A stretch of 64,000 nt of DNA from Hemileia vastatrix (Eukaryota > Basidiomycota > Pucciniomycetes > Pucciniales > Zaghouaniaceae). Location: assembly GCA_030280995.1 (NCBI GenBank), contig JASXTE010000016.1, positions 15,205,001-15,269,000 on the forward strand, in the 5' to 3' direction. Positions 1,936-62,202 of the stretch are shown here, piece by piece (within the stretch, counting starts at the first letter, position 1; every line of letters starts with the position of its first letter). Made by a program: the position numbers and the translations under genes. Under the pieces are notes generated by a model. The model saw only the letters and a list, made by a program, of their open reading frames with translations, had not been told where the DNA came from and ran no database searches.

Positions 1936-3509
1936 TTAATGTCTGGAAGAAGAAGCCTCCGACGGTTGGTCCGGATTATGGTGGTTTTTTTGCTTTTTGT
2001 TAAGATTAGAAGAAGAACTGCGTTCTTTGTGGTGTAGGCAGCTGGAAAGTGTATATGGATTGTAATGGTCAGGTACTGGAGTGGAAGGTAATTTTTGGGA
2101 AGAAGTGGAAGAAGCAGGGATTGAGTGTTGGAAGGTGTGCTTGATTATTCTAGACATCTTCCAGTGGTCATCAAGGAGCTTTTTCCTCAGATTCTTTTCA
2201 AAGTCATTCAACGGACCGTGGAGGGCAAAGTCCTTAAGCATGTTTGAACACATCATGCTTAGATTTTGTTTCATGTTGGCGTAATCCAGAGTTGAGGTAG
2301 TTTTTAGAGGTTGGAAAATCCCAATTGTAGTTTCAGGAGGCAGGGTTCCAACTACACAGAAGAATTAGATCAGTAATTGTTCTCTTTTAAAGAAATTGGA
2401 TTTATTAATTTGGTACTTACAGATTGGAAGCTCATCAAATTTGTAACCGGGCAGGATTTGAGCTGTTGAAGAAAGCTGAATGGATGTTGAAGGAGGATCA
2501 ACCAGATAGAGGTATGGATTCTCATGATCATTATCTGAATGGTGTTGAGAAGATGAAGAAGAAGAAGGGGGTTCCTGTGTCCTGGTTGGAGCAGCAGGGC
2601 TGCTGTTGTTATTGTGGATATTATTATTGCTTGGCCCAGTTGGGTTGGACACTGGTGGTGGAGAACCAGGGTTGTTGAGGGAAGGATCAGGAGAAGGTGA
2701 CCTGGAAGCTGATTGTTATTTGCTGGATGAAGATCTAGAAGAAAGGGAACCATCAGAGGAATAATTGATGGCCAGAGGAGAGGTGTAGTTAGTTCTTCAT
2801 AAAGTAAACAGAGATTTTTGTTTGGAAGCAGCGTTGCATGCTCTGGTGTTTTCGGAAGGTCCTCTGGCAGGTTTTCTAGAGATGTTGGAATTTTTGGGGT
2901 TTTCTGGGGAAGAAATTTGGTGTGTATGCATTGCTCTGGGAGCACTAGGAGGTGGTGGTGTAGAGTTGTTGGTGTTTAATGGTGTATTTTGACTGTTATC
3001 TGGCTGAATTTGGGAGTTTTGAGCCTAATGATTGCTTTCTGGCAAGGCAGGCCGGCCCCCCGATGTCAGGAGGGCTGCCTGGACGCAGTCTAGCAGCCTG
3101 GGAGCTGATTTTGAAGCTGATTTGGCCTAATTTTCTGAGATAAAAGAAGATTCTTGAGAATATAAAGCAGGTCTTTTAGGGATTGTTTTGAGAATAGAAC
3201 GGTGTTATCTTCTGGAAGGAGTGGAAGATAAAGAAGAGGAAGCAGGTCCAAGTTCTGGTGACCTGGTAGGAGATCTGGAAATATATTTGTGTGAAGGTGA
3301 AGGCGGAGGTATTGGATAGTTGGGGTCTCTGTCACACCTTTTATTTTAGAGTTGCAATAATCAAAGGCTCTGTTATAGAATTTGGCTTGAGGAGTAGGAA
3401 GAGTGAAGTTACAAGGTCTGCACATGTTAATGCACTGTTTACAAGCAAAGTCCTTTGTAGCAGTGAAACAGGAAAGGTCTGATGGGTCAAAGTCTGGGGA
3501 TTCAGCCAT
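1936..3509 (-). pseudogene. Antisense gene alpha (Cys-cluster protein), copy A, broken
   Basis: On the minus strand this starts with MAESPDFDPSDLSCF and the cysteine region CKQCINMCRPCNF, as in copies B and C. The first Cys of the second half is Phe here (RAFDYC), and a frameshift follows before the last Cys. More frame breaks occur in the Ser/Pro-rich middle. The intron is preserved: donor GTAAGT at 2,420 and acceptor TAG at 2,352, 69 nt, at the same codon as in the other copies. The last exon keeps the conserved helical domain (MCSNMLKDFALHGPLNDF, then HWKMSRIIKHTFQHS) and runs open to its stop at 1,936. The gene is dead by sequence, but its C-terminal exon is well conserved. Function unknown; a DNA-binding role is inferred from the Cys pattern of copy C. 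Confidence 0.75.
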
Positions 3510-3659: not shown

Positions 3660-4273
3660 TATTCCATCAAGACTTTAAACTGAACAATGTTAGTCCTCCA
3701 AGAATTTAAACTGGCTGATTACAATTTTATTTCAAGAATTTGAATCCTCTATGGGCTCTGTAGTCTGTCAAGACTTTAAACTGAACACTGGAAGTCCTCC
3801 AAGACTTAAAACTGGATGGTAATTTAAAGATTGCTTCAAGATTTTTATTTTTTTATTACTACTGGGGATCTGTAGTCCATCAAGACTTTAAACTGAACAC
3901 TTTGAATAGTCACCCAAGACTATAAACTGAGGATAGTTTTTGGTTGAGTCCTTCAGGACTATAAACTGATAATGTGGAGTTGGTGTGATTCTGGCAGAGG
4001 GCATCCAAGGGGGAGTCTCTGAATTTTGTTGAGGCAAGTGTGGGGGTAACTGATGAGCTGGATGCTCTGTAGAACAGTTACCCCAGAATTTTAGTTTGTT
4101 TCTTTGGTCTTTTAATGTTTTGATCTCTGGTTCTGTCCTTTGATTTAGGTTTTGAGTCCCCCAAGACTATAAACTGAGGGTTTTTGAGTCCCCAAGACTA
4201 TAAAATGAGGGCTGTTAGTCCCCCAAGACTTAAAACTGAGGATTAGTCCCCCAAGACTTTAAAATGAAGAGTT
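3660..4273 (+). repeat. Cluster of ~11 copies of a ~20-nt motif upstream of gene alpha, copy A
   Basis: The consensus on the plus strand is AGTCCCCCAAGACT followed by TTAAACTGA, with small variations. Copies start near 3,664, 3,692, 3,772, 3,797, 3,876, 3,908, 3,946, 4,153, 4,179, 4,209 and 4,235. Spacing is irregular, so this is not a simple tandem repeat. The cluster lies upstream of alpha (which starts at 3,509 on minus), as in copies B and C. Confidence 0.85.
4043..4084 (+). other. Conserved hairpin H1, copy A
   Basis: GGGGTAACTG pairs perfectly with CAGTTACCCC across a 22-nt interval, in which GAGC can pair with GCTC. It is one of seven copies of this structure in family 1. Confidence 0.7.
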
Positions 4274-4427
4274 TTTTTTATTTTTTATTTCTAAATAAAG
4301 CTTTTTGGGCAAGAAGTAATTACAGAAAAGAAACAAGAGATGTAACAAAATGTTCAGCATGGGCTTTGAACTGGTGGATGAGGTTCTTCCTTTTCTCAAG
4401 GTCCTGTGGGTTCCTGGAAGGAGTGTA

Positions 4428-4924
4428 TTAGAAGTAATCTAAGATGAGATGCTTCTGTTGAGAAAAGTGTTGTTGGAAGTTGTCTTTGATGGTGGGAAAT
4501 GGATTAGGTGGGGGTTCTTCAATAGTTCCAACATTGTCATCATCACTGTCTGGATTGGAATGAACTGGAAATTTGTCAGATTGAATTTCAGTCTGAAGAA
4601 GTATTGGACTTACCATTAGAAGGACCAGGGATGGAAGAGCTAGTTTTTGTAGCGGGGTTGGCACTCTTTTTTGAAGGGTGTAACTTGTTGACCAGTTTAG
4701 GGATCAAGATGGATGGTCTGGATCTTTTGGTGCTGGTGGAAGGTGGATCAGGTTGTGGAGGACAATGGACCAGGTCTGAAACAAGTCTTCTTCCTAGAGT
4801 GACAGGCATCACAGGAGGTTCTGTAGGGATGAGCTGGATGTGTTATGGTACAGATGAGATTGTTGTCAATGCAGTATTGGCAAGGACCCATGTCAGTAGC
4901 AGATTTGGAGAGGAAGCTGAACAT
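4428..4924 (-). pseudogene. Antisense gene beta (Zn2Cys6-like protein), copy A, broken in the linker
   Basis: The minus-strand start at 4,924 gives MFSFLSKSATDMGPCQYC. All six Cys of the cluster are kept with spacing C-x2-C-x6-C-x12-C-x2-C-x6-C, as in copy C. A small deletion and frameshift just after the cluster put a TGA in frame; the downstream reading frame (STSTKRSRPSILIPKL) resumes in another phase. The intron is intact, with donor GTAAGT at 4,613 and acceptor CAG ending at 4,565 (49 nt). Exon 2 contains the acidic run PDSDDDNVGTIEEPPP and a helical QQHFSQQKHL segment, ending earlier than in copy C. It sits directly before the 3' LTR, on the opposite strand to gag-pol. Confidence 0.75.
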
Positions 4925-21038: not shown

Positions 21039-21465
21039 TCAGTTTACAGTCTTGGGTGACTCATCCTCATTTTTAAGTCTTGGGGGACTAACAGCCCACA
21101 TTTTATAGTCTTGAGGGGCTTAAAACCCTCATTTTATAGTCTTGGGGGACTCAAAACCTAAATCATAAAGACAGAACCAGAAATCAAACCATTAAAGACC
21201 AAAAAAAAATAACTAAAATTCTTGGGTAACTGTTCTACAGAGCATCCATCTCATCAGTTACACCCACACTTGCCTTAACTAAATTTTAGAGACTCCCCCT
21301 TTGGATGCCCTCTTCCAGAATTACACCAACACCACATTATCAGTTTATAGTCCTGAAGGGCTCAGCCATCAAACCATCTTCAGTTTATAGTCTTGGGGGA
21401 CTATACCATTATTCAGTTTACAGTCTTGATGGAATGGCCACAGTGTTCAGTTTGAAGTCTTGAAG
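21039..21465 (-). repeat. Motif cluster upstream of gene alpha, copy B
   Basis: About eight copies of the family-1 motif, read here as TCAGTTTATAGTCTTGGGGG and variants, starting near 21,039, 21,075, 21,103, 21,133, 21,341, 21,380, 21,416 and 21,450. They lie upstream of the alpha start at 21,624, as in copies A and C. Confidence 0.85.
21224..21265 (-). other. Hairpin H1, copy B (first)
   Basis: Arms GGGTAACTG and CAGTTACACCC with the usual ~22-nt interval; one arm carries an extra base. Confidence 0.55.
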
Positions 21466-21623
21466 GAATTTTCACACTTTTCATAAAAAGACAGAGCCAA
21501 TTCCATGAACAATACCCCAAAACCAGCCTACTGAACTTCCTCTTTCTATTCATCATCTACCCATCACAGATAAAAAATTTTCTTCTTATCTCTTTTCTCT
21601 TCATTTTTCTCTCATCACAGATC

Positions 21624-23172
21624 ATGGCTGGATCCTCAGATTCTGACCCATCAGACCTTCCTTGCTTCACTTCCCCCAAAGACTATGCTTGCAAACAGTG
21701 CATCCACATGTGCAGACCTTGCACTTTCACTCTTCCAACCCATGAGGCCAAACTCTACAACAGGGCCTGTGATTTATGCAACTCCAAAAAGAAAAAAATG
21801 TGACAGAGACCCCAATTATCCTACACCTTAACCTTCACCTTCACATAAATACATCAACAGATCCCCTACTAGATCCCCAGAACTTGGTCCTGCTTCTTCC
21901 TCTTTATCTTCAGCTCCATCCAGAAGATCCTGGCAATCAGTTCCCAGAACACTCTCCAAAAGGCCTGCTTTATCCTCTCAAGAAACAGCTTTTATCTCTG
22001 AAAATTAAGCTCCAACAGTTTCAAAATCAGCTTCCATGCTGCTAGACCGCCTCCAGGCGGCCCGCCTGTCTCACTACAAAACAAAAATCAGGCTCAAAAC
22101 CTTCAAATTCAGCCAGGAAAAAGCCAAATTCTTCCAACAAACAACAATAAATCCACACAAAACCTCCTAGTGCTCCCAGAACAATGCAATAAAAGTTTAT
22201 TACGTAAAAAATTCCAAACATTCCAAAACTTCTAGAAGACCTGCCAGAGGGCCCCAAGAAGACACTGGAGCACCAAATAATGCTCCAAGGCAAAAATCTC
22301 CCTCTCAATCAAGAAGAAGCAATTACACCTCACCTCGTCCAGCCAATTATTCATCTGACAGTTCAATTTCTTCAAGAGCTTCATCCAGAGGAGACCAACA
22401 AGTTTCCAGGTCACCTTCTCCTGCTCCATCTTACATCAACCCTGGTACTCTACCACCAGCACCCAATCAAACTGAACCAAGTGAAAATATCAAAAATAAA
22501 AACAAAAGCCCTTCTGCTCCAACTAAGCCACAGGAACTTTTTCATCCTAGTCTGTATTCTCAACACTATTTAGAGGATTACAAAGAGAATCCATATCTCC
22601 ACCTTATTGATCCTCCTACTACCTCCATTCAAAACCCTTCAGCAGTCCAAATTCCGGCAGCTTACAAATTTTATGAAATTCCAATTTGTAAGCACCAAAT
22701 TAATTATTCCAATTTCTTCAACAGAAAACAGTTGCTGATCCAATTCTTTTATTTAGTTGGCACCTTCCCTCCTGAAACTACTATTGGGATTGGCTAGCCT
22801 CTGGAAGCCACATTGGCACTGGATTGTGCAGATATGAAGCAAAACCTAAGTATGATGTGTTCCAAAATGCTTAAGGCCTTTGCTCTTAATGGGCCACTGA
22901 ATGAATTTGAGAAGAGCCTGAGAGAGAAACTTCTTGAAGACCACTGAAAGATATCCAGGATAATTAAACACACCTTCCAACACTCCATACCAGCCTCTTC
23001 TACTTCCACCCAAAAATAACGTTCAAATCCAATACCTGACCATTAAAATACCTACAATCTCTCGAGCAGACGTAACAACAAGGAACAAAGTGCTTCATCC
23101 AATCACATCAAGAACCAAAAAAGCCAACATAATCTGGACCAACCTCCAGGAGCTTCATCTTCCAGTGATTAA
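21624..23172 (+). pseudogene. Antisense gene alpha, copy B, broken
   Basis: Starts MAGSSDSDPSDLPCF and keeps all Cys positions to CDLCNSKKKK. An extra A in the A-run there causes a frameshift before the last Cys. A TAA interrupts the Ser/Pro-rich part (near 22,006), and a TGA replaces Trp in the conserved C-terminal domain. The intron is at the conserved position: donor GTAAGC at 22,688, acceptor TTTAG ending at 22,756 (69 nt). The C-terminal exon keeps MCSKMLKAFALNGPLNEF and SRIIKHTFQHSIPASS. The same change of reading frame around the GC-rich cassette (22,030-22,075) is seen as in copy C. Not functional as read. Confidence 0.75.
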
Positions 23173-26209: not shown

Positions 26210-26222
26210 CTCCCTCACTCTA
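26210..26222 (-). promoter_or_regulatory. Polypurine tract of element D
   Basis: TTAGAGTGAGGGAG on minus, immediately before the TGTCAG start of the 3' LTR; the same GAGGGAG precedes LTRs at 39,418 and 43,397. Confidence 0.65.
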
Positions 26223-26242
26223 AAAAAACAATAAAAAAAATG

Positions 26243-29923: not shown

Positions 29924-29932
29924 TAAAACATC

Positions 29933-31191: not shown

Positions 31192-31223
31192 ATTGTCATT
31201 CTTTAAAGCAGTATTTTCATCTT

Positions 31224-34676: not shown

Positions 34677-34769
34677 TTGCCTCTTTTTTAAATAACTCAA
34701 TTCTTTTACCATCTGTAAACCCTCTTCTTTATATTTTTCTTTTCCTCATCTTTGCTACTAGTAAAGAAT

Positions 34770-43389: not shown

Positions 43390-44198
43390 GAGGGAGTGTC
43401 AGCCAGGCTGCTAGACTTACCCAGTAAATAAATAAATTATTTACTGGGATGAAGCCACACCTTTTTATTTCTTATAAATTATTATTAATTATAATATATT
43501 TACGTTAAATTTACTTGTAATAAATTAATAGTTACAAAACAGTAAAGTTAGTAAATAATTAAAATTAATACTAAAGGTCCCTTATATTTTTTTATTTCCT
43601 AACACCATTCTCAATGACAAATTAATAGAAATAAATATTAATATTAATATAAAGTTTAACATTGAAATAAAATATTAAAATAAAATAAAAATATATACAA
43701 GAAATTCAAATTAAATATTTAAAAATAATACTTACAGTAATTTTTAAATAAACCAATTTATTTCTGACATATACAGTAAATACACATTTTTAACACTTTC
43801 TTTTTAGAACAACCTTATTTTTTGAAAATATTTTTCTGGAATATTCCTTTTCTTCTCTCATACTCCTGTATATAGGGTTTTAACTCTGTGTTTTGTCTCT
43901 CTTTTGCCTTTATAAGGCCTCCCCTTTCTGCTTGTTTTGATCATTCAATTACTTATTATTTTATTCAAATCATTATTCCAATCAAATATTTATTACTATT
44001 ACTTATTTTTTTTAGTATTTACTAACAAGTAACTCTAAATCATCAATTATAATAATATTTATAAATTTTTTACCTCTATAAACTGAGTAAATTAAATAAG
44101 AGATAAATTATACTTACTTTGACTTTGAAACCCCAAAAATCCACCAATCACCGACATTGTACCTCCTTAAAAATATTCTGGACTATCAGGACCCTTAG
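43390..44198 (+). repeat. Polypurine tract and family F LTR copy 2
   Basis: GAGGGAG (43,390-43,396), then an LTR from TGTCAGCCAGGCTGCTAG at 43,397. A perfect 12-bp stem (CCCAGTAAATAA with TTATTTACTGGG) is at 43,420-43,448, and a TATAAGGCC promoter-like box lies near 43,912. The right end is at or near the insertion point of copy C (44,199), so its exact boundary is unsure. Confidence 0.7.
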
Positions 44199-44202
44199 AC
44201 GG
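44199..44202. repeat. Target-site duplication ACGG of copy C (left)
   Basis: ACGG is repeated at 57,304-57,307, directly after the 3' LTR. A 4-bp duplication is on the short side for Gypsy but the borders are exact. Confidence 0.7.
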
Positions 44203-45295
44203 TGTGGTCTTCCAACATTGGCAGGGGCCTTTGTTGTGTGATTTGGCGCTGTTTGTGCATGTCTTAATTGACATCTGTTAAGGAATTTGGTATTTTTCTG
44301 GTTTTATTCCGTGGATATTGGGTCTGCGGGTATGTGGGTACTATTATTGGATAGCCCTGCTTTTTCTCTATATTTTATGTCTTGTGGACATTTTTCATAT
44401 TCTGAGTTTTAAGGGGTCATTTCCTCATTTTTCATTTATAAAAGATTGCTGTTTAATTTTGTTTTTCGTGTTTTACGGGCTAACCTTAAGTCTTAGGGTT
44501 AAGTGCTTAGTACCATTGGATAGAGCTAATTTTTCTCTATATTTCATGTCTCAATGATGTTATAGTGAAATTCCGTGTTTTAAAGTTTTTAGTAGTTGTA
44601 GCTAATTTTTCTAAGTAGATTAGTGGTTTTTATTGGTTTTCTGGCTTCAGGGAGGCCGGGCCGCTTCAGGTGGCATCTCCGACGTCGGGCGGCCCGCCCG
44701 CCTCTGTTTTAGGAGGTTGGGGAGCGCTCCAGGAGGGGTTTTTATGCAATCTGGCAGGTACAGGCGCCAGATTGGTGGGTGCGCATGGGCTCTTAGTTAG
44801 TGGTCTGTGTGTACATAGTGAAGAAGACAGTTTGGGGCAACCTTAATCATCATACAACCATCCGGAGGTGATCTCATTGTTCCTCACTCAGTTTTCACTG
44901 TTTTCTGGCCACAATTGGCTGTTTTTGTTGCAAGTGAGTTCCTCATTTAACTTAACTTTGGCAACTGTTTTCTCTGTTATAGTCTTGCAAGCTATAGCAA
45001 GTATTATTGCTGTCTCTGGTGTGGATTTGCAGCCTACATCAAGTATCTTTGCTGTCTCTGGTGTGGACTTTATTCTACATTTCAGTTCTTTGGTCTGGTA
45101 GTCTATCTGGGGACTACTTTCTTAGCTCATCAAGCAGTCAAGTGTGTTAAATAGGAGCTTTAGCAAAACAGGAACCAACTTACTTTAGCAAGTAAATCTC
45201 ACTCTATTTTTCTAAAGGGACAGGGGATTTGCTCTATGGTTTTTCTCCAACTCCCTTGGTCAAGGCCTATAGCTAGTACTATAGGATTGTCTACA
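44203..45295 (+). repeat. 5' LTR of copy C
   Basis: From TGTGGTCTTCCAA to GGATTGTCTACA, 1,093 bp. Contains a GC-rich cassette (44,650-44,705) with the palindrome CCGACGTCGG, standing out from the A/T-rich surroundings, and twin TGTCTCTGGTGTGGA phrases near 45,020 and 45,055. Confidence 0.92.
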
Positions 45296-45299
45296 TTTC

Positions 45300-45316
45300 T
45301 GGCGCCCAACGTGGGG
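45300..45316 (+). promoter_or_regulatory. Primer-binding site, tRNA-Lys type
   Basis: TGGCGCCCAACGTGGGG starts four bases after the LTR. This is the complement of the 3' end of the tRNA-Lys (CUU-type) known from animals, as used by several retroviruses; that the fungus's own tRNA-Lys ends this way is inferred. Confidence 0.75.
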
Positions 45317-45385
45317 TAGAACTTGCTTGTTCTTTGGAATATCTGTTACTTTGGTTGGCTCTTTTCGGTGTTTTGGACTGGAGAA

Positions 45386-47767
45386 ATGGCTTCTGGTTCT
45401 GCTATTCATGTGGTGACTGTCAGTGGGGGGGATGGTCCTCCTTCTGTGATGGTTAGGGAGTGTGTGAGGATTAAAACTTGGGATGGTACCAAGTTTAATG
45501 GGGAGGATGTCAAGTGGTTTCTATAGAAGTATGAAACTGCTGCTGGAGTGGATGGTGCTTCCTACCTGGAAATGGTGAAGCAGATTATCTTCTTCATTGG
45601 TGATAGGTCAGTGGAGAAGGAGGTTGTGGCCATGTCTGGCTACAAGAAGAGGGATTGAAAATTGCTGTGTAGGGAGATGGTGGAGAGATGGGGTGTCAGG
45701 TTCACTATGGTGGATCTGAACAAGGTTGTCAGTGAATGGCAATCTTATGGTGGTGTTGGTAACTTACATAGTTACAGGAAGTTTCTGCTACAGTTTGATC
45801 CTGTGGTGGAATATTTGGTGGAAGTGGAGGAGCTGGCACATGAAAATGCTGCCAAAGATGTTTTTTGGTCTGCCCTGGCTAGAGATGTCAGGATGGATGT
45901 TTTGAAGGAGTTGTCAAGAAAGGAATTGATGAAGACTCTTTCTAATGTGGATCAGAAGTTGCCTGCCTTGGATAAGGTGAAGGAGGCCTTTGAGGCCCAT
46001 TTGAAGTTATTGGCTGTGGACACCTATCAGGAGGGGTGTGCCAAGTATGTCAGCAAAGTCAGTGAGGCTTTGGCTGAAGAGGAAGTTAGGGAGAAGAAGG
46101 AGGAGAAGAATTTGGTGCAGGTTCCCAAACAGGAGAGGGACCCAATGGTGGAGCAGCTGGCTGATCTGACAAAACAGCTGCACATTTTTGTCCAGGAGGC
46201 CAAGAAGGTTAATAAGGCACCTTCTCAGCCAAGAGATTTTGAAAGGAGGGCTGGTAGAAGTGATCCTTGGGTTTGCTCTTATTGCAGTAGGAGGGGGCAC
46301 AGGTCCAATGATTGTTGGGCACTGAACAGAGATGTGTCTGAAGGAAAAGTGGAGTTTGATGGCAGGGTTTTTAAGTTCCCTGACGGTTCTTTTGTGAAGC
46401 CCAGTGAGGGGCATGCTCCTGTTGATTTGGTCAGGAGAAGAGGTGGTCTCAATCAAAGGAGGCCAAGATTTGAGGAGATTCCTGATCAGGGGAAGTCTTC
46501 TGTTAAGGTAGATGAGCACGTCAAGGGAAAGGGGAAGGAGGTCAATAAGGTCTCTTTTTCTACTTCTTTTGGTGGTTTGGAGTTGTATTCTTGTGGTGGA
46601 CAGTCAAGTGTTAAATGCTTGGCTGGTGTTTATGATGTTGAAGCAGGAAAGGTGGGAAGGCCTAAGAGCAGTTCTCAGGCCCAACCAAAGCAAAATGCTT
46701 CAAAGGGTGATCCTAAGCTGAGTGCAGCTAGGAAAAGGTACAGCAAAGAGGAGCTGTACAAGATGCAGAAGGGTATGGCTGACATGATCCCCCCTAGTTT
46801 TGGTGCATTGGACCTGAATGGTGAGCCAATGCCAATGGAGGTGGATTCTGACTCCGAGGAGGATGTCCCTTTGGCTTCATTGCCAAAGCCTGTTGGAGTC
46901 AGAGTTTCTGGTGAGGGATCTGGTTTGGTTCCTGTTAATGGTAAATCTGTTGGTGGTGCTGGTCCTCAAGAATCTTCTAGGACGAAGGTGGTGAAGCAAA
47001 GAGCTTACTTTGAGAGGCCAGTAGTGTCTGGTCAAGTTAATTTTATGGACTCTGTCCTGGAAAGGATGAATCAGGGTCAGGTTTCCCTATCTTATGGGGA
47101 ATTGTATGCTATCATTCCAGGGTTGGCTGATAGGCAGAAGAAGTTGTTGACCAGGAGAAGGGTTTCTTCTGGTGAGGTAGAATACATTTGTGATTCTGCT
47201 GAAAAGTCTGGTGAAGGGTTGGAAACTCATTTTTCTGCTCCTCTGGGATATGTCAATGTCACTCTGAATGGCAGGGAAGCAAGGGCATTGGTGGATTCAG
47301 GTTCTCAGATAAACCTGATTTCTTTGTTTGAGGCAACTCATATGGGCCTCCCCATCAAAACTGGTATTGGTGGGAATTTGAGAGGGATCAGTGGCCATGT
47401 CACTGGATTGGTTGAAACTTCAGAGTTTGTGAAGTTAGATGTTGGAGGAGCCTCAGGGAAGGTTCATTTTTACTTTTCTAAAGGTAATGTAAAAGCAGTT
47501 TTGGGTGGGCCATTCATGATGGATTTTCAGGCAAGAATAGGTTATCAATTTGATTTGGGAATCAGTTTGGAGTTGACTGGTGAAGACGAAAGGAGGCTTC
47601 ACATGAGGTTGTCATCCCCTGGAGAGGATGGTTGGGAGACTAGGCCTGGTTTATCTTCAATGTGCCAGTGCATGGACTGCTGCAGGAGAAGGAAGGAAGT
47701 GGGTGCTGCCTCTGGTTTTTTGGAGTGCGGCTCAGGCTCTATTGAGAGTCTGTCTTTTTTAGAGTAA
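45386..47767 (+). pseudogene. ORF1 gag-protease, copy C, two in-frame stops
   Basis: Starts MASGSAIHVVTVSGGDGPPS at the first ATG after the primer site. TAG at 45,524-45,526 and TGA at 45,656-45,658 interrupt it; each fits one C-to-T or G-to-A change (Gln and Trp codons). The rest is open to TAA at 47,765-47,767. A gag-like helical region is followed by a CCHC zinc knuckle (CSYCSRRGHRSNDC, near residue 300), a long basic and Ser-rich linker, and an aspartic protease with ALVDSGSQINLIS. Gag forms the particle and binds RNA; the protease cuts the polyprotein. Protease in the gag ORF rather than in pol is a notable layout. It cannot make full-length product unless stops are read through. Confidence 0.88.
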
Positions 47768-47769
47768 TG
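47765..47769 (+). promoter_or_regulatory. TAATG stop-start overlap between ORF1 and ORF2
   Basis: The ORF1 stop TAA shares its last A with the ORF2 start ATG. Such overlaps allow termination-coupled reinitiation in several retroelements; here that is inferred. Copy A has TAATA instead. Confidence 0.65.
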
Positions 47770-50700
47770 AGGGCTGATCACCCTAGTGCTACAACCTCTC
47801 CCCGAGATGAGGAAATCCCAGGTTGTAGTAGGTCAGCTCCCTTGGAGATATACCAAGTGGATTTTCAACTTTCTCTTTTTAATGTTTCTCTTCTCTGCAA
47901 GTATTCATCAAGTTTTTTATCAAGTCTCTGTTCTCTCTCAAGATTCTTAATTATTTTTAATTCAAGTTCAAAGAAGAAGATTGGTTATATATCTTTATTG
48001 AAAGATATGCGGAAAAGTTTTGGGGCGATGAGATTGGGGTCTAAAAGTAAGTCCTCCCAATTGTGCACCTCTAGGGTTTCTTCTACACCTTTCAAAAACA
48101 TTACCTGGGCCACACCTGTGAGCATTGGGGAAACCCCTAGTTATTTTTGTAGGTCAGAAGAAAACTCAAGAAAAGAAGATAAAAATTTCAAGATAATTCA
48201 TGAAAATCAAGAAAAAAATCTGAAGATAATGAATAAAGAAGACACGAAATATTTTTGTGAAGATCATCAAGATCTATTTTTGGGCCTCCAGCATGAGGTT
48301 AAACTGCAGAGAATTTTGAAGAAAGAAGATCATCAAGATCAATTTTTGGACCTCCAGCATGAGGATAAACTGCACAATTTTAGAAGATGTGATTCAGAGG
48401 ATGAATCAAGATTTGAAGATTTGGAAGTTGGAAGTGAGGATGAAGATGTGGAATTGCAGAAAAGCTTTGGAGTGGTGAGATTGGGGTGTAAAAGTAAGTC
48501 CTCCCAATTGTGCACCGCTAGGGTTTCTTCTACACCTTTCAAAAACATTACCTTGGCCACACATGTGAGCAATGGGGAAACCCTTGGTTTTTGTTCCAGG
48601 TCTGGTGGTGAAGATTTCCTGAAGATCCCTCAAGTTGAAGGTGGAGCGGCAAAGTATAAGAAGGTAGCGCAGAAGATTAGCCCTGTCAATGAGCCTATGC
48701 CTGCGGGTTTGAATCCGCCTTTGAAGAGACCTCCTTTGTCAAGAGATCCGTACTGTACTCCTTTGGTGAAGAATCCTCCAGAATTTGTAGAGACGGCGAG
48801 GGTGACCGTGGAAAGATTGAAAGTTGTTAATTTTGGTCCTGATGGGTGGTTGTCTGAGGAAGAAAAGAAGTTGTTGTTACACATTATTGTGCTAAGGGAA
48901 AAAGCGGTGGCATTTGTTGAGGAGGAAAGGGGTGTATTGAAGCACTCTTATGGGGAACCTTACTTGATTCCTGTAGTTTGTCATGAACCTTGGCAAATCA
49001 AACCTATTCCGATTCCAGCCGCTATCCGAGAGGATTTTGTAGAGATTGTTAGGGAAAGAGTCAGGACTGGGTTATACGAACAATCAACATCCAGTTACTC
49101 AAGTCCGGTGTTCTGTGTAAAGAAGCAGGATGGAAAGTTGAGGGTGGTTCATGATCTTAGAGCCTTGAATAGAGTCACTATCAAGGACGCTGGTATGCCG
49201 CCAAGTGCAGAGGATTTTGTTGAAGATTTTGCTGGAAGGGTGTGTTATGGTTTGGGTGATATTATGGGTGGTTATGATGAGAGGGAACTCCATATGGATT
49301 CAAGGCCTCTCACAACTTTTGAGACTCCTTTGGGAAGATTTCAGCTCACTAGGTTGCCTCAAGGAGCAACTAATTCAGTGGCAGTTTATCAAGCACAGAT
49401 GGCTTGGATTTTTCAGGATGAGGTTCCTACTCATGCTGGTATTTTTATTGATGATGGTGGAATTAAAGGACCATCCACTGATTATGGTAATGAGGTGTTA
49501 GCGGAGAACACTGGAATAAGGAGGTTTGTGTGGGAATATGCAATAACTCTAGAGAGAGTGTTGTTCAGGATTGAAGAGGCTGGTTTGACCATTTCAGGGT
49601 CAAAATTCTGTTGTTGTGTTCCCGCTTTGGAAATTTTGGGTCATGTGGTATGTAAAGGGGGAAGGATTATGGCGAAGAAGAAGATTAATAAAATTCAGGC
49701 ATAGCCAAGGCCTAAAAATACTACTGAAGTCAGAGGATTTTTGGGTGTATGTGTATATGTCAGGATTTTCATTAAGGATTTTTCTTTGTTGGCTTCACCT
49801 TTAAGAAGGTTGAACAGAAAAGATGCAGATTGGGAATGGACGGAAGAGTGTGAAGAGGCTTTTCAGAAGCTGAAAAAGGTTGTTGGTGAAGATATAATTC
49901 TTCACAAGTTGGATTATGGTGTTGGTGCTGGAAAGATTTATCTGGCAGTGGACTCAAGTTATATTGCTTCTGGTGCTGTTTTGTCTCAGGAGGATAAGAC
50001 TGGGAGGGTCAGGCCAGTAAGGTATGAGTCTGTGGTGTTTAATGAGGTGGAATCTAGGTATTCTCAACCTAAGTTGGAATTGTGTGGCGTAGCTAAAATT
50101 TTAAAGAAGCTGCAGACGGTTTTGTGGGGGCAGCATTTTGAGCTGCAGGTGGATGTAAAATCTTTGGTTCAGATGATCAATACACCTAGTCTTCCAAATG
50201 CTCCAATGACTAGGTGGGTGGCATTTATTCAACATTTTTCTTTTGACCTGGTACACAAACCAGGTAAAACTTTTACTATGCCTGATGGGTTATCAAGGAG
50301 GCCACCTACAGATGAGGATTCTGATTCTTAAGAGTTTGAGGAAGATGTTTTAGTGATTAGGGCCAGCACAAAGGGTGCTGAGGATTTTTCTTTCCTCCCC
50401 CATGAGGCTAAACTGGATGATTGTTCTAACCTCCCCCAAGAGACTAAACTAGCTGGATCTGATCTTGATTCTGGTGATCAGGATGTTTTTGTTGATGAAG
50501 ATGGAGTTGTTGTTTGGGACAGCTCAAAATTGGAAAAGGGTGTTTTTGTTAGTGAACTGGATTCTCACAAGGTTCAGTGGAAAGAGGACGATGTGCCAAA
50601 ATACAAAGATTGGTGTCCTGTTTGGGCTGCTCAATTGGCTCATGTTCACACTGGTGATTTTGATGACAGAGTTGTACCCTTGGATGTGGTTTTGTAGGAT

Positions 50701-51987
50701 TTTGAAGATGAGACCTGGGGTCAATCTGGGTTTTATTTTATTTTGGTGGAATATCTGTTGACCTTGGAGTGGCCAGATATTTGTGATGATGATACTTGGT
50801 TGGCAATCAAGAAGAAGAGTCCTGGATTTTATGTGTCAGGAAGGCGCTTGATGAGAAGGAGACATCCTAATCCTCAAGTGGTGGTGACTCAGAAGAACGG
50901 TCAAGAATTGGTTTTGAAGTCTTTGCATGAAGACCTTGGTCATAGAGGCTTTAGGGAGACTTATAGAAGAGTAGCAGACAGATTTTGGTGGCCAGGTATG
51001 AAGTTGGCTGTGCAGGGTTGGGTTCAATCTTGTGAAGATTGTCAAAGAAGAAGTCACTTAAAACCTAAGGAGGTCGGCCGTGCTACTGGCAAATCAACTG
51101 TTTTTGGAAGGGTCAGTCTGGATGCTGTCCATATTAAAGAGGACAGGTATAAATACTTGATTGTTGCTAGGGATTATTTGTCTGGTTGGGTTGAGGCAGT
51201 GCCTCTGGTTAATTTGACTGCCAAGAATGTGGCAGAGTTTTTGAAGAAGAAGTGGATTTATAGGTATGGGTTGATGAAGTTGGTGACTGTTGATGGTGGG
51301 CCAGAGTTTGGTGCCAAATTTAAAGAAGCTGTGGCTAGTGTTGGTTCTAGGGTTAGAGTGGCTACACCGTAATATCCTGAAGCTGAAGGCATGGTTGAAA
51401 GAGGCCATCAAGTTATCAAGAATGCTTTGGTGAAGATGTGTGGAGATAGTGCCGAAAAGTGGAGTCATTATTTACCCTTGGTTTTATTTGCGGATAGGGT
51501 CACTGTGAAGAGGACAACTGGCTATTCTCCTTATTAGTTAATTTTTGGTCAGAAAGCTGTTCTACCAGTGGACTTGGAAGCTGTCACTTATCTTGGAATT
51601 GATTGGGATGACGTGCACTCAATAGAAGATTTGCTCTGTGCCAGGATGCAACAGTTGGAATGTAGAGAGGAATGTCAAGAGAAGGCGTACTCTAGAATGA
51701 TGAAGATTAGGAATCAATCAGTCAGGTACTGGGACAAGAAGTTGGCTCATAGACTCAGGAATCCCTTGAAACCTGGTTGTTTGGTTTTGGTGTATAATAG
51801 AAGTTTGGAGAGTCAGTGGGGGAAAATTTTTGCTGACAGATGGAATGGACCTTACAGAGTCAGATCTCAGGCGTCTGGAGGTTCTTATGTTTTGGAAGAG
51901 TTGGATGGTGCAGTCTTGAAAAAGAGGGTGGCTGCAGACCAAGTGAAGAGGTTTTATCCCAGAGGCACTAGGCATGAAGAAGATTGA
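47767..51987 (+). pseudogene. ORF2 pol (RT, RNase H, integrase), copy C, five in-frame stops
   Basis: One frame from ATG 47,767 to TGA 51,985-51,987, ~1,406 codons. Internal stops are TAG 49,702, TAA 50,329, TAG 50,695, TAA 51,370 and TAG 51,535; all are reachable by C-to-T or G-to-A changes. The ~380-residue N-terminal extension contains an internal duplication. RT has LRVVHDLRALNRV, RLPQGATNS and the active site GIFIDDGGIKGP (FIDD in place of YxDD, as in a basidiomycete Gypsy clade). RNase H begins LAVDSSYIASGAVL. Integrase has the zinc finger HEDLGHRGF...CEDCQRRSH and D,D,E at SLDAVHI, TVDGGPEFG and EAEGMVERGHQ. No chromodomain is seen. Product would copy and insert the element, but this copy is dead without readthrough. 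Confidence 0.88.
48005..48605 (+). repeat. Direct duplication inside the pol N-terminal extension
   Basis: 48,008-48,155 and 48,459-48,603 are ~85% alike by eye. Both encode KSFG, then RLGxKSKSSQLC and RVSSTPFKNIT, with the same frame. Each copy ends in a pyrimidine-rich stretch and TTTGTAGGT or TTCCAGGT, resembling a 3' splice site. The same pair exists in copy A. Confidence 0.8.
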
Positions 51988-52124
51988 CTCCGCAATGAGG
52001 ATAAGCTACAGACCATTCTTTAATTTTGGTTTTTTTTATGGTGATGCTATGCATCTGTTTGTTGGAAACTTTTGTTAGAGGGTACCCATGGGTGGGGCTT
52101 CTAGATTTGATCTTGGCAAGTGTA

Positions 52125-52426
52125 GGGGTGACTGATGGGCTGGCTGCTCTATCAACAGTTACCCCAGATTGTCTGTTTCCAACCCTTTCTCTTAATTTGG
52201 TTGAACCCTAGTATTGGTTTATTTTAACAGGTTTTAGTACTCTATGACTTTAAACTGGAATTTACTTTGGTTTTCAAGTGCCGGACTCTTCACTCTTATT
52301 GGTTTTGGTTTTTTTGTGTTGAATGTTGTGTTTTTGTTAGAAGGTACCCAGGGGGGGCTTCTAGATTTTATTTTGACAAGTGTGGGGGTAACTGATGAGC
52401 TGGCTGCTCTGTAGAACAGTTACCCC
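52125..52426 (+). other. Two H1 hairpins, copy C
   Basis: 52,125-52,165 has arms GGGGTGACTG and CAGTTACCCC (one G-U pair). 52,385-52,426 has perfect arms GGGGTAACTG and CAGTTACCCC. Each is preceded by GGTACCCA...GGGGCTTCTAGATTT, so the pair is a ~260-bp direct duplication. Single motif copies follow at ~52,230 and 52,497. Stretches 51,988-52,124 and 52,530-52,790 hold nothing else I recognise. Confidence 0.7.
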
Positions 52427-52797
52427 AGAATGTCTGTCTCAAGACTTTTGTTTTTCCTAGTTGAATTCTAGTTCTGTTGTTTATTATTCAGGTTTTAAGT
52501 CCTCTATGACTTTAAACTGGTTTGGGACTGGCTTCTTTATCTTTGGTTCTTTAAGATTGGTGGTGGATCACTGGTGGTCTCCCATCATTTTTACTTATTG
52601 GAGGGAGCCCACCCAGTGATCATTTCTATGGACCGGAATTTCCCTTATTGGACCATCTATGGAGCTGGACTGTCTTTGATTTTGCAGTTATGATTTATCT
52701 GGATAGAAGTTTTAGATTATTTTCTTTTTTCTCTTTTTTTCTTTTAATTTTTTTATGGGGGTTGTTTAAAATTATAAAATCAAAAGATAGGGTGTTA

Positions 52798-53064
52798 CCA
52801 CATCAGGGTCACCTGGATGTGGGCAAGCATTGTTGGGGAAAGGCTCATCAATTGGCCGGGCAATGCTATTTTCTTATTTTTAATTATTATTTATTTCATG
52901 TGTTTTTGTGTTACATTATTTTTTATTATTTTCTGAATTTCTAAATTTTTGAATTTCGTTTTCTGTTAACCATTTAAAAGAATTAATTGTGTATCCACAT
53001 CAAGGTGCACTTGGATGTGGGTAAGGTATCAGGGGATCAGCTCATCAATTGGCTGGGGGATACC
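52798..53064 (+). other. Paired H2 hairpin units, copy C
   Basis: Unit 1: CCACATC with GATGTGG (52,798-52,822), then GCATTG with CAATGC (52,827-52,866). Unit 2: CCACATC with GATGTGG (52,995-53,020), then GGTATC with GATACC (53,025-53,064). Both second hairpins enclose CTCATCAATTGGC with an inner GGC/GCC or CAGC/GCTG stem. The outer stems differ in sequence but both pair. 53,065-53,228 is A/T-rich without other features. Confidence 0.7.
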
Positions 53065-53228
53065 ATTTGTATTATTTTTTAAATTTTATTTTATTTCATT
53101 TATTTTATTTCATTTCATTTTAGTTATTAATTTTTAATTTTAGTATATTAGTAGATACAAAACAAAAAAAAACAAAAAAAAAATTCTGAAATTATTTTTA
53201 TTAATTGTTTTATATTATTATTATGTTT

Positions 53229-54780
53229 CTAATCTTTTTTCAGGAGCTCATTGTCTGGATGATGAAGCTTCTGGAGGCTGGTCCGGATTGTGATGACGTT
53301 TTTGTTTTTTGTTGGGATTGTGGGAAGCACTGTGTTCTTTGAGGTGCATCCTGCTGGAGAGATTATAGGGATTGGATTAGAGGGAAGTTCAGAGGAGGAA
53401 GAAGAAGAGGCAGGAATGGAGTGCTGGAGGGTGTGTTTAATGATCCTAGACATTTTCCAGTGGTCGTCCAGTAGGCGCTTTCTCAAGGATTTTTCAAAGT
53501 CATTCAAGGGTCCATGGAGGGAAAAGGCTTTTAACATATTGGAACACATGGTGCTTAGGTGTTTCTTCATGTCTCCATAATCCAGGGTCAAAGAATTTTC
53601 AAGAGTTTGGCCAACTCCAATAATAGATTCAGGAGGAGGGGTGCCAACTAGACAAGAAGAATTGGATCAGTAATTATTTTTGTTGAAGAAATGGAATAAT
53701 TAATTTGGTACTTACAGATTGGAAGCTCATCAAATCTGTAAGCAGCTGGGACTTGGATCTCTGTCGATTTTGTTATGGTCATAGTGGGTGGATCAACTAG
53801 GGAAAGATATGGATTCTCATGGTTTTCCTCTGAAGGATCCTGAGAAGGTGAACTAGGATGCTGATGTTCCTGGGGCCTAGTTGGAGCAGTGAGATTGTTT
53901 TTGTTGTTGTGGTTGTTATTTCTGTTGGATTCAGCTGGAGGAGGTGCTGGTGATGGAGTACCAGGGTTGTTAAAGGATGGAGCAGGAGAGGGGGATTTTG
54001 AAGCAGACTGCTCTCTTCTGGATGGAGAATTTGAAGAGATGGAACTGTCAGAAGAGTAGTTGGCTGACAGAGGAGAGGTGTAGTTTCTTTGTCTTAGTTG
54101 GGGACGAAGTTGTTGTGGAGCAGTGTGTGGTGTTCTGGTTTCTTCTTGGGGTTCTCTGGCAGTTCTCTTAGAAATCTGGGAAATTTTGGTGTTTTTGGAT
54201 TTTGGAAGGGTGGATTGCATTGCTCTGGGAGCAGTAGGAGGTAGTTGGGTTGAGTTGTTATTGTTGTCTGGATGAATTTGGCTATTTTCTGGCCGTTTTT
54301 GGAGGTTTTGGCCCTGATTTTTACTGTTTGGTGAGGCGGGTGGGCCGCCTGGAAGCGGTCTAGGAGCCTAGGGGTTGATTTTGAAGCTTTTGGAGCTAAT
54401 TTAGCAGTGATAAAAGCAGTTTCTTGAGAAGCTAAGGCTGGTCTTTTGGGAAGAGTGCGGGAAGCTGAGCTTCTGGATCTTCTGGAAGGAGCTGAAGATA
54501 GAGAGGAAGAGGATGGCCCAAGTTCTGGAGACCTGGTAGGGGATCTGGAGATGTACTTGTGAGAAGGAGAAGGCGGAGGAATAGGATAGTGGGCATCTCT
54601 GTCACATTTCTTTTTTTTGGAATAGCAAGAGTCACAAGCCCTGTTGTAGAATTTGGCTTCTGGATTTGGAAGAGTGAATGTGCAAGGTCTGCACATGTGG
54701 ATGCACTGTTTGCAGGCATAGTCCCTTGGAGCAGTGAAGCAAGGAAGAGTAGAGGAGTCAACAGCAGGGGATCCAGACAT
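53229..54780 (-). CDS. Antisense gene alpha: Cys-cluster protein, spliced, best copy
   Basis: Start ATG at 54,780: MSGSPAVDSSTLPCF, then seven Cys spaced C-x2-C-x3-C-x2-C-x15-C-x2-C-x6-C; the last part (CDSCYSKKKKCDRD) looks like half of a GAL4-type zinc cluster. A long Ser/Pro/Asn-rich middle follows. Reading changes frame between ~54,375 and 54,345 at a GC-rich cassette, then stays open to a clean intron: donor GTAAGT at 53,715, acceptor CTAG ending at 53,648 (68 nt). The final exon (53,647-53,229) contains the most conserved part, MCSNMLKAFSLHGPLNDF and WKMSRIIKHTLQHS. The intron signals work only on the minus strand, so this is a real gene opposite to gag-pol. Role unknown; nucleic-acid binding and regulation of the element are inferred. 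Possibly broken at the frame change. Confidence 0.7.
54335..54375 (-). other. GC-rich cassette at the alpha frame change
   Basis: On minus it reads CTAGACCGCTTCCAGG then CGGCCCACCCGCC. CCGC can pair with GCGG. Related cassettes lie in copy A alpha (~3,040-3,100), copy B alpha (~22,040-22,075) and in all family-1 LTRs. Confidence 0.55.
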
Positions 54781-54929
54781 GATTTGTGGTGTGAAAGGTG
54801 AGGAAAAGGATAAGAGAAGATTTTGTCAGTGATGAGTAGAAGATGAAGTGAAGGCGGACGCTCCGTGGGTCTAGCTGTGTGTGTATTGCATGAAATTGGC
54901 TGGGTCAGATTCATTCAAGATTCTGGCAG

Positions 54930-55465
54930 TCCTCTATGACTCTAAACTGGAAATTTTATCAGTCCATCAAGACTCTAAACTGAAAAAGCTATGGTATCAA
55001 GTCAGTCCATCAAGACTTTAAACTGAAATCTGGTTTCTGTTAGTCCTCCAAGACTTTAAACTTTCTGGTTTCAAGATTTTGTCAAGAAGTAGTCCGTCAA
55101 GACTTTAAACTGAACACTGTGTTAGTCCCCCAAGACTTTAAACTGAGGGTTGTAAGTCCCCCAAGACTATAAACTGAAGAAAAAGGCTTTTGTTGTAGGA
55201 GTTGATTTTGAAAGATTGGTGGAGGGTATCCACAGGGGGAGCCTCCGAATTCAGCAAAGGCAAGTTTGGGGGTAATTGATGGGCTGGATGCTCTATTCAC
55301 AATTACCCCAGAATTTTAGTTTTTTCTCTGTGTCTTAATGTGGTTGATCTCTGGTTCTGGGTTTATGATTTAGGTTTTTGAGTCCCCCAAGACTTTAAAC
55401 TGAGGGTTTTTGAGTCCCCCAAGACTATAAAATGAGGATGGTCCCCCAAGACTTAAAACTGAGGG
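54930..55465 (+). repeat. Cluster of ~10 copies of the ~20-nt motif between alpha and beta, copy C
   Basis: Copies start near 54,932, 54,961, 54,999, 55,040, 55,091, 55,123, 55,155, 55,380, 55,411 and 55,440, with consensus AGTCCCCCAAGACT then TTAAACTGA. The first seven are upstream of the alpha start (54,780, minus). Two more copies are at ~52,230 and 52,497. Confidence 0.88.
55269..55309 (+). other. Hairpin H1 with a compensatory base-pair change, copy C
   Basis: Arms GGGGTAATTG and CAATTACCCC. Compared with the other copies a C-G pair has become T-A on both sides, so pairing is kept. The inner GGGC/GCTC stem is also kept through a G-U pair. Confidence 0.75.
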
Positions 55466-55522
55466 TTGTTTGTGGTTACATCCTATAGAGGGTGTGGTCA
55501 ATTTTTCTTTTCTGAATCAAAC

Positions 55523-56163
55523 TCAAGTACTAGTGGAATTACAGAGGGAATCAAGAGATGAAATGAAGTGTTCAGAATTAGCCTTGAACTGGTGAATGAG
55601 GTGTCTTCTGTTCTCAATGTCCTGTGGATCTCTAGCAGGAGTGGATTGGAAATAGTGAAGCAGAAGTTGTTTCTGTTGAGATGTGTGTTGTTGGAACTTG
55701 GCCTTGATAGTGGGCAAGTGCGTTGGTGTTGGTGGTGCAATGGATCCTACATTGTTATCATCACTATCAGAAGAGGAAGGAACTGAGAAGCTATCAGTTT
55801 TAAAGTTGAAGGAAGGAATGAATGTTCTTTACCATCAGATGGACCAGGGATGGGGGAACTAGTTGTTTTATGGGTTGTGGCACTCTTCTGCGAAGGGTGG
55901 AGCTTTTTGATTAATCTGGGTATCAGGATGGATGGCCTAGATCTTTTGGTGCTGGCAGAAGAAGGACCAGGTTGAGGCGGAGGTGAATCTGTTGTGGAAG
56001 AAAGTGGACCAGGTCTGTGGCAGGTTTTCTTTCTGGAGTGGCAGACATCGCAGGACGTTCTGTATGGATGAACAGGTGGTGTTATGGCGCAGATTAAATT
56101 ATTGTTGATGCAGTATTGGCAGGGACCCATTTCAGAGGCAGATTTGGGAAGGAGGTTAAACAT
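55523..56163 (-). CDS. Antisense gene beta: Zn2Cys6-type zinc-cluster protein, spliced, apparently intact
   Basis: Start chosen at 56,163 (MFNLLPKSASEMGPCQYC), conserved in copy A; the frame is open further upstream but that would run into the LTR. Cys spacing is C-x2-C-x6-C-x12-C-x2-C-x6-C, matching fungal binuclear zinc clusters that bind DNA, with basic residues in CHSRKKTC. A Ser/Pro linker holds a basic STKRSRPSILIPRL. The intron has donor GTAAAG at 55,832 and acceptor CTCAG ending at 55,783 (50 nt). Exon 2 encodes an acidic SSSDSDDNNVG and two helical stretches, ending at the stop at 55,523. The total is 196 residues, in frame with no defects. The acidic stretch could be an activation region. 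The gene sits beside the 3' LTR, opposite to gag-pol. Confidence 0.8.
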
Positions 56164-56198
56164 GGTGGTTGGATGAAGAAAGAATGCGGACATTCTCA

Positions 56199-56211
56199 AT
56201 TGGAAGGAGGA
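56199..56211 (+). promoter_or_regulatory. Polypurine tract of copy C
   Basis: TTGGAAGGAGGA directly before the 3' LTR start; copy A has AGAGGGAGGA at the same place. It would prime plus-strand synthesis. Confidence 0.65.
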
Positions 56212-57303
56212 TGTGGTCTTCCAAAATTGGCAGGGGCCTTTGTTGTGTGATTTGGCGCTGTTTGTGCATGTCTTAATTGACATCTGTTAAGGAATTGGGT
56301 ATTTTCTGGTTTTATTCCGTGGATATTGGGTCTGCGGGTATGTGGGTACTATCATTGGATAGCCCTGGTTTTTCTCTATATTTTATGTCTTGTAGACATT
56401 TTTCATATTCTAAGTTTTAAGGGGTCATTTCCTTATTTTTCATTTATAAAAGATTGCTGTTTAATTTTGTTTTTTGTGTTTTACGGGCTAACCTTAAGCC
56501 TTAGGGTTAAGTGCTTAGTACCATTGGATAGAGCTAATTTTTCTCTATATTTCATTTCACAATGTTGTTATAGTGAAATTCCGTGTTTTAAAGTTTTTAG
56601 TAGTTGTAGCTAATTTTTCTAAGTAGATTAGTGGTTTTTATTGGTTTTCTGGCTTCAGGGAGGCCGGGCCGCTTCAGGCAGCATCTCCGACGTCGGGCGG
56701 CCCGCCTGCCTCTGTTTTAGGAGGTTGGGGAGCGCTCCAGGAGGGTTTGTTATGCAATCTGGCAGGTACAGGCGCCAGATTGGTGGGTGCGCATGGGCTC
56801 TTAGTTAGTGATCTGTGTGTACATAGTGAAGAAGACAGTTTGGGGCAACCTTAATCATCATACAACCATCCGGAGGTGATCTCATTGTTCCTCACTCAGT
56901 TTTCACTGTTTTCTGGCCACAATTGGCTGTGTTTGTTGCAAGTGAGTTCTTCATTTAACTTAACTTTGGCAACTGTTTTCTCTGTTATAGTCTTGCAAGC
57001 TATAGCAAGTATTATTGCTGTCTCTGGTGTGGATTTGCAGCCTACATCAAGTATCTTTGCTGTCTCTGGTGTGGACTTTATTCTACATTTCAGTTCTTTG
57101 GTCTGGTAGTCTATCTGGGGACTACTTTCTTAGCTCATCAAGCAGTCAAGTGTGTTAAATAGGAGCTTTAGAAAAACAGGAACCAACTTACTTTAGCAAG
57201 TAAATCTCACTCTATTTTTCTAAAGGGAAAGGGGATTTGCTCTCTGGTTTTTCTCCAACTCCCTTGGTCAAGGCCTATAGCTAGTACTATAGGATTGTCT
57301 ACA
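56212..57303 (+). repeat. 3' LTR of copy C
   Basis: 1,092 bp, matching 44,203-45,295 with roughly 27 differences by eye. Followed by ACGG, repeating the left flank. Confidence 0.92.
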
Positions 57304-57567
57304 ACGGAAACCGTTGAAAAACCATATTTAATGAAATTATTAATAGAAATCCAGAATTAATTTTAGTCATGTAGATATAGAGAAAAACATTACTTATAGT
57401 TTAAATACAAAACATTTAATCAAATAAAATACTAAAAAATAGAAAAAGTAGAAGCATGTAATGTATATAAGAGAGATTAAAAGCATTGTTCTATAATCAA
57501 AACATTAATTTCCATCTCTGATCTGGAAGAGGTTTTCAAGAGGGGTTAATGTGGCACCATTTCAATT

Positions 57568-62025: not shown

Positions 62026-62202
62026 ATAATGGACATTAATTTGATTATTTAATTAAATTTTCTTATTGTGATTATTTAATTTATTACAAAAAATTTTAAG
62101 ATAAATATAATATTATTAATAAGAAAATAAGAAAAAAGGTGTGGCTTCATCCCAGTAAATAATTAATTATCTTTCTGGGTAAGTCTAGAAGCCTGGCTGA
62201 TA

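Follow-up and report, generated by a model that had tools for sequence, protein, structure and literature searches.

The question raised by this locus is what two genes written on the strand opposite to gag-pol are doing inside a fungal retrotransposon. The window, i.e. the whole 64,000-nucleotide (nt) stretch of Hemileia vastatrix DNA that was analyzed (contig JASXTE010000016.1 of assembly GCA_030280995.1, forward-strand positions 15,205,001 to 15,269,000), carries at 44203-57303 a Ty3/Gypsy-type long terminal repeat (LTR) retrotransposon of 13.1 kb, here copy C, in which the minus-strand genes alpha and beta lie between pol and the 3′ LTR, the position of the antisense genes classed as aORF-3R. 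All comparisons rest on the three copies of the element in the window, namely C; A, which extends from the window start to ~6073 and is without an integrase; and B, which is inverted, lies at ~21.0-24.5 kb, and has no LTR. We propose that alpha and beta are accessory proteins encoded by the element and made from antisense transcripts, which regulate their own element through an array of motifs lying between them, a reading to which we give an even chance. The coordinates of the features are collected in Table 1.

The beta gene of copy C is intact and reads, exactly as a preliminary description of this DNA had it, as one clean open reading frame (ORF) of 196 amino acids without a stop on the minus strand (56163-55523) after removal of a single intron. 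In copy A, beta begins at 4924 and contains a 49-nt intron (4613-4565) at the identical location, the intron again as previously claimed; the gene is broken there, exon 1 being 20 nt shorter and stops being present. The distance from the beta ATG to the 3′ LTR is 48 nt in both copies. Differences between C and A at codon positions 1/2/3 amount to 19/11/37 of 105/103/103 sites in exon 1 and to 26/16/37 of 86/87/87 sites in exon 2. The exons are thus constrained as protein while the intron is free except at its ends, which is the cleanest evidence that the beta intron is real.

The ratio of nonsynonymous to synonymous substitution (dN/dS) was calculated by the Nei-Gojobori method in the minus-strand frames, for alpha in the pairs C-A, C-B, and A-B and for beta in C-A alone, with codons containing gaps or stops skipped and the alpha stretches 54390-54091 and 53399-53376, where the frame is ambiguous, excluded. 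All 14 segment comparisons gave values of 0.05-0.58, versus 0.76-3.30 for the 28 values obtained in shifted frames, with intervals reaching 1.00 for the alpha 1b part in A-B (0.58) and 1.02 for the alpha tail in C-B (0.34). The low minus-frame values relative to the shifted frames show that alpha and beta were under purifying selection, for which the preliminary description had called as a test, and this selection is as strong as that on the reverse transcriptase (RT) of those copies (0.35 between C and A). An excess of differences at codon position 3 was significant (p<0.05) in 13 of the 14 comparisons, the exception being alpha 1b in A-B (p=0.17); it was again significant in 13, with the same exception, when CpG-type changes were left out, so that decay of CpG sites is ruled out as the source of the codon signal. 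In a six-frame scan, in which a window passed if no more than two of its codon pairs contained a stop and its dN/dS was below 0.35, the windows that passed were 14/34 for alpha C-A, 5/26 for alpha A-B, 4/11 for beta C-A, and 0/4 for the LTR, while two satellite comparisons left zero windows past the stop filter and hence provided no effective control. The dN/dS values and the codon-position excess, with the LTR as control, rule out chance ORFs. Coding on the sense strand was likewise rejected: in each of five segments (C-A) one plus frame has a dN/dS of 0.20-0.49 with 1-9 stop-bearing codon pairs, and this value lies above the minus-strand one in four of the five and is about equal in alpha 1b (0.33 vs 0.34). 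The low plus-frame dN/dS is the shadow of shared third positions.

The conservation of both genes in other copies, noted previously, is borne out for alpha in three copies and for beta in two, with no beta found in copy B by tblastn, and protein conservation across copies is what is also seen in aORF-3R genes. The synonymous divergence between C and A is 0.83-2.20 in alpha and beta (53249-56163) vs 0.32 in RT (47746-49704); either an exchange of the accessory module between subfamilies or a faster rate of evolution may underlie this difference.

Alpha is a real gene, though disrupted in every copy of the window. Its conserved frame extends from the ATG at 54780 to ~54391 and shifts twice, first within 54390-54091 and then near 53.39 kb, at a point where C falls short of A and B by 16 nt. 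Because of these shifts, conservation of the frame stops near 53249, and the end proposed at 53229 is a by-product. Of the gene previously drawn at 54780-53229, the ATG and a conserved coding region therefore stand, and the single continuous reading and the end do not. In A and B the length of an A-rich run in the zinc cluster differs from that in C, which breaks the frame at that point, and further stops are present in both. A second intron at the frame change was considered and rejected, as reading the alignment by eye, with no program, gave no conserved GT donor.

The coordinates proposed for the alpha intron proved correct in C (53715-53648, 68 nt), A (2420-2352, 69 nt), and B (22688-22756, 69 nt). 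It starts with GTAAG, ends with TAG, contains a CTGAT branch-like site, and leaves the spliced junction in frame in all three copies. Its divergence is 13%/9%/18% (C-A/C-B/A-B) vs 28%/25%/24% in the surroundings, and windows as conserved as this make up 0.3% of 337 for C-A and C-B and 9.5% for A-B. Because the 69-nt stretch of A and B is divisible by three (it is open in B and has one stop in A), the claim that the introns are valid on the minus strand alone, which holds for beta, is less certain for alpha. In C the intron carries three small length changes, incompatible with a solely coding role; this favors an intron, yet alpha of C is broken anyway. The simplest reading is that of a true intron that may be facultatively retained. 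A splice-acceptor-like CACAG is located 3 nt 5′ of the alpha ATG in A and B (3513-3517 and 21616-21620; CACAA in C) and could reflect an intron in the 5′ untranslated region or splicing of a beta leader into alpha.

The zinc binuclear cluster of the Zn2Cys6 type (PF00172) has the spacing C-X2-C-X6-C-X5-12-C-X2-C-X6-8-C. The N-termini of alpha and beta read C-X2-C-X6-C-X12/15-C-X2-C-X6-C, where the X12 of beta fits that spacing, upholding the exact match claimed for it, and the X15 of alpha is slightly beyond the range. The evidence here is stronger than had been claimed, in that alpha too carries the six-cysteine pattern and has an N-terminus homologous to that of beta (tblastn E 0.002-0.011); no homology was found by comparing the C-terminal parts of alpha and beta with each other, and these parts have no Pfam match. 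A stop-free double CX2CX6C-type motif, the pattern for which was written after the proteins had been seen, occurs three times in the six frames of the window and in none of 100 local shuffles, and the three matches are the N-termini of beta (A and C) and alpha (C) and nothing else. Predicted models have two short helices at the clusters, and the 18 Foldseek matches of the beta model are all zinc-cluster proteins, with weak E-values. Pfam scans of beta and of parts of alpha gave no bZIP domain. Protein-database searches, with sensitivity limited to shared 5-residue words, yielded 107 candidates for beta and 540 for alpha, none with a scored match, and no homolog outside the element. Searches of viral contigs (beta, RNase H, and RT), genome contigs (RT), phage records (alpha), and PDB sequences (beta) were likewise fruitless.

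The spacer between the two genes holds a 23-nt motif in which, over 29 copies, positions 9, 11, 12, 14, 17-19, and 21 are invariant and positions 6, 7, and 15 vary freely; the copies were chosen by likeness to the consensus (at most 7/23 mismatches), which favors conserved positions. Matches with at most three mismatches number 22 in the window, all within these spacers of the three copies, and 0 in 100 shuffles. Exact AGTC-N6-GACT dyads number 10 in the internal region of C (nine of them in the array), 8 in A, and 0 in the LTRs of C. This conserved dyad array, a candidate operator, adjoins the genes in all three copies. Downstream of alpha, two weaker copies of the motif are found in C as well as in B; in C they belong to a block with similarity to the alpha-beta spacer (75%, E 1e-17), which would fit a joint duplication of gene and spacer.

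In the model that we propose, alpha and beta would be made from transcripts opposite to the gag-pol strand, with a putative antisense promoter in the 3′ LTR driving beta and the motif array probably driving alpha. Each protein would bind DNA via its zinc binuclear cluster, the C-terminal helices possibly pairing the proteins, and would occupy the dyad array and perhaps also a CGG/CCG-rich box in the LTR. By such binding, the proteins would adjust how much sense relative to antisense RNA is transcribed and, in turn, how active the element is or how many copies it reaches. As the introns are antisense, they would not be spliced from the genomic RNA and thus survive reverse transcription. That selection has kept both genes points to an element equipped with a control system of its own. 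Of the earlier interpretation, the idea of accessory genes, the spliced minus-strand genes, and their conservation across copies are supported.

It has to be noted that several points weigh against this model. Alpha is intact in none of the three copies, and its gene model is partly wrong. The scores against the Pfam Zn2Cys6 profile are 13.4-19.0 bits, compared with a gathering threshold of 21, and three of the six pieces tested were unmatched. The order of the halves is reversed, the first half of beta matching profile positions 16-35 and the second half of alpha positions 1-16, so that the cluster looks permuted, with the basic half second, whereas PF00172 has it first; the profile check suggested for beta thus returned a match to a half, below the cut-off and in swapped order. 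The regulatory function, finally, is a putative one.

A more elaborate form of the model finds its counterpart in HBZ of human T-cell leukemia virus type 1 (HTLV-1), the spliced antisense transcript of which originates in the 3′ LTR and the protein of which damps Tax-driven transcription, according to the available portion of PMC3185765. HBZ and APH-2 of HTLV-2 share with the present genes an antisense, spliced arrangement at or from the 3′ LTR and a DNA-binding type of regulator (PMC3185765); the position and intron of beta fit the HBZ layout. They differ, as far as that portion goes, in having a bZIP or none in place of the zinc cluster, in being single genes, and in belonging to mammalian retroviruses, and the resemblance would be one of convergence, no descent being claimed. 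It is conceivable, though tentative, that alpha and beta form an antisense two-protein transcription circuit, with duplicated, intron-bearing, permuted zinc-cluster genes, an operator array, and two alpha isoforms arising through the in-frame intron, which would amount to a fungal equivalent, reached by convergence, of the Tax/HBZ balance in HTLV-1.

Other functions of the proteins have to be weighed against control of transcription. That they act in integration or nuclear import, riding the preintegration complex and tethering it to host chromatin with the array being incidental, is rather unlikely: the proteins are basic and of nuclear type, their genes lie between pol and the LTR, and nuclear roles have been suggested for plant antisense proteins (PMC7264820, in the part available), yet a separate antisense transcript would be an odd route for a particle protein, and the conserved dyad array beside the genes would be left unexplained. 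Basic cysteine clusters are able to bind RNA, and the motif is present in the sense RNA with all copies in one orientation, where the dyad could form a short stem. Export or packaging of the genomic RNA by RNA-binding proteins, with the array as the RNA target, nevertheless appears unlikely, since the Zn2Cys6 spacing and the fold matches are typical of DNA-binding proteins and a 4-bp stem would be weak.

Selection at the amino-acid level on both genes requires a protein function and contradicts the view that the antisense transcript serves solely as RNA; that it acts mainly in this way, e.g. as a source of small RNAs that silence the element, the proteins being of lesser importance, we regard as quite unlikely, even if powdery mildew transposons have spliced antisense transcripts judged noncoding (PMC10648671, as far as its accessible text goes). 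Mainly host genes might be targeted instead, with alpha and beta as selfish or captured host regulators, and HBZ acts on host genes as well (accessible part of PMC3185765); no host target is known, however, and the database search described above returned no homolog outside the element, which makes this improbable. That the two genes are passengers, derived from a nested insertion or captured without any element function, would agree with the breakage of alpha in all copies and of beta in A but is highly improbable given that they occupy the same site in the same order in copies that have diverged (82.5% LTR identity between A and C) and that purifying selection is seen between these copies.

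Returning to the proposed control of the element by its own antisense proteins, the position of the genes has precedents. Genes of this antisense type, lying between pol and the 3′ LTR, are well established, examples being Grande gene23, RIRE2, Retand ORF4, and PvRetro13 ORF2, and the 2020 review describing them, in the part available, states that the function of such accessory genes of LTR retrotransposons was not yet determined and that no clear protein similarities were described, though it mentions an SMC domain for one of them and a transposase-28 domain for another (PMC7264820). The plant Gypsy genes resemble alpha and beta in position, in conservation among copies, and in the nuclear roles proposed for them (PMC7264820), whereas, judged from that part, only here are there a homologous pair, introns, six-cysteine clusters, and a motif array. 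The preliminary description knew of no fungal antisense genes encoding zinc-cluster proteins; the zinc-cluster content is new as far as searched, but a fungal antisense gene as such was already known, namely brtn in the Gypsy element Boty of Botrytis cinerea (PMC7264820; title of Zhao et al. 2011 cited in PMC8365987), which is likewise an additional gene on the antisense strand of such a fungal element. Literature searches on fungal, basidiomycete, and rust retrotransposons found, among the records listed, no zinc-cluster antisense gene in the titles or abstract openings of open-licence texts, which leaves priority unproven. As far as searched, what is new are the zinc-cluster-like products, the homologous gene pair, the antisense introns, and the operator-like array. 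Fungal Zn2Cys6 factors (Gal4, Ppr1, Leu3, Put3, and Pho7) have the six-cysteine spacing in common with alpha and beta, are comparable in the two short helices predicted at the clusters and in the weak-scoring Foldseek matches of the beta model, and differ in profile score, in the order of the halves, and in the C-terminal parts.

The presence of a DNA-binding-type cluster, a homologous partner, and a candidate target in one element makes the role of antisense genes directly testable in vitro. Antisense-intron markers serve in retrotransposition assays, and the introns found here are a natural version of such markers. If the element controls itself, this would bear on the Gypsy-driven inflation of rust-fungus genomes.

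Table 1. Positions of the features discussed, in window coordinates (dN/dS of alpha in the order C-A/C-B/A-B)
Feature	Position	Strand	Remarks
5′ LTR of C	44203..45295	+	TG...ACA ends; 97.8% identity to 3′ LTR, 1093 columns
Target-site duplication ACGG, 4 bp	44199..44202 left, 57304-57307 right	.	
gag-protease ORF	45659..47767	+	Asp_protease_2, E 3.3e-07 (Pfam)
Reverse transcriptase ORF	47746..49704	+	RVT_1, E 9.5e-11 (Pfam); rust-fungus relatives
RNase H ORF	49705..50331	+	RT_RNaseH, E 6.9e-23 (Pfam)
Integrase	50698..51981	+	ORF 50698-51372, homology to ~51981 by tblastn; Integrase_H2C2 4.7e-19, rve 5e-07 (Pfam)
Pair of weaker motif copies in C, 3′ of alpha (52236, 52498)	52236..52520	.	Duplicated block resembling alpha-beta spacer
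Alpha conserved C-terminal tail	53249..53375	-	Other frame in C; dN/dS 0.12/0.34/0.20
Alpha exon 2	53400..53647	-	Predicted helical hairpin (model from copy A peptide); dN/dS 0.07/0.22/0.05
Alpha intron, 68 nt in C	53648..53715	-	Unusually conserved, possibly facultative
Alpha second coding part (1b)	53716..54090	-	dN/dS 0.34/0.40/0.58
Alpha stretch with frame change	54091..54390	-	GC-rich box; ambiguous frame
Alpha first coding part (1a)	54391..54780	-	Six-cysteine cluster 54714-54604; dN/dS 0.17/0.19/0.19
Array of C, 10 copies	54928..55462	.	Between alpha and beta; AGTC-N6-GACT core; candidate operator
Beta exon 2	55523..55782	-	dN/dS 0.27 (C-A)
Beta intron, 50 nt, GT-AG	55783..55832	-	22/49 aligned sites differ (C-A)
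Beta exon 1	55833..56163	-	Six-cysteine cluster 56121-56020; dN/dS 0.17 (C-A)
3′ LTR of C	56212..57303	+	Candidate antisense promoter of beta
GC-rich box in 3′ LTR	56647..56741	.	Holds most LTR CGG/CCG triplets; candidate site, weak
Alpha of copy A	2086..3509	-	Broken; exon 2 open to end
Array of copy A, 11 copies	3661..4267	.	
Beta of copy A	4326..4924	-	Broken
Array of copy B, 8 copies	21039..21469	.	
Alpha of copy B	21624..23016	+	Broken; inverted element

Copy C has the order protease, RT, RNase H, and integrase between its LTRs that characterizes Ty3/Gypsy elements, together with TG...CA LTR ends, a target-site duplication, a primer-binding-like TGGCGCCC directly after the 5′ LTR, and a polypurine tract GGAAGGAGGA preceding the 3′ LTR (the last two judged by eye). 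Its pol is split over several ORFs, and pol homology stops near 51981. The RT ORF has 35 related proteins, of which the named fungal ones are all from rust fungi (Puccinia striiformis, Puccinia coronata, Austropuccinia psidii, and Cronartium quercuum; 55-74% identity), the remainder comprising many metagenome proteins, one filed under a bacterial assembly, and one from a fish. These relatives point to a rust fungus as the most likely host. The GC content of the window (33.9%) is close to the 33.8% given for A. psidii in the available part of PMC8063080. A box related to the GC-rich box of the LTR is present within alpha; CGG/CCG triplets are not enriched across the whole LTR (14 vs a shuffled mean of 18.2). 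A GC content of 65% or more over 60 nt is reached at just four places in the window (3031, 5421, 44636, and 56641), which correspond to the GC-rich boxes found in the A and C LTRs and within alpha of copy A.

On the minus strand at 25011-34240 is a second Gypsy element, which encodes RT and RNase H and also has a chromodomain-like match under the Chromo cut-off; partial copies in inverted orientation lie at 35-39 kb and at 41 kb. Pfam found a zinc cluster in none of the four ORFs of this element that were scanned nor in one ORF of the inverted copy, and the six-frame scan for the cysteine motif gave no match in the element. An AT-rich satellite with a unit of ~600 bp, in about a dozen diverged head-to-tail copies, fills 9393-17024; it was not reported by Tandem Repeats Finder, the periods of which end at 500. 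A dispersed repeat of ~120-140 nt, with copies 82-84% alike at 34559-34684, 43380-43520, and 62084-62200, begins near CAGCCAGGCTGCTAGACTTAC and is possibly a small nonautonomous element.

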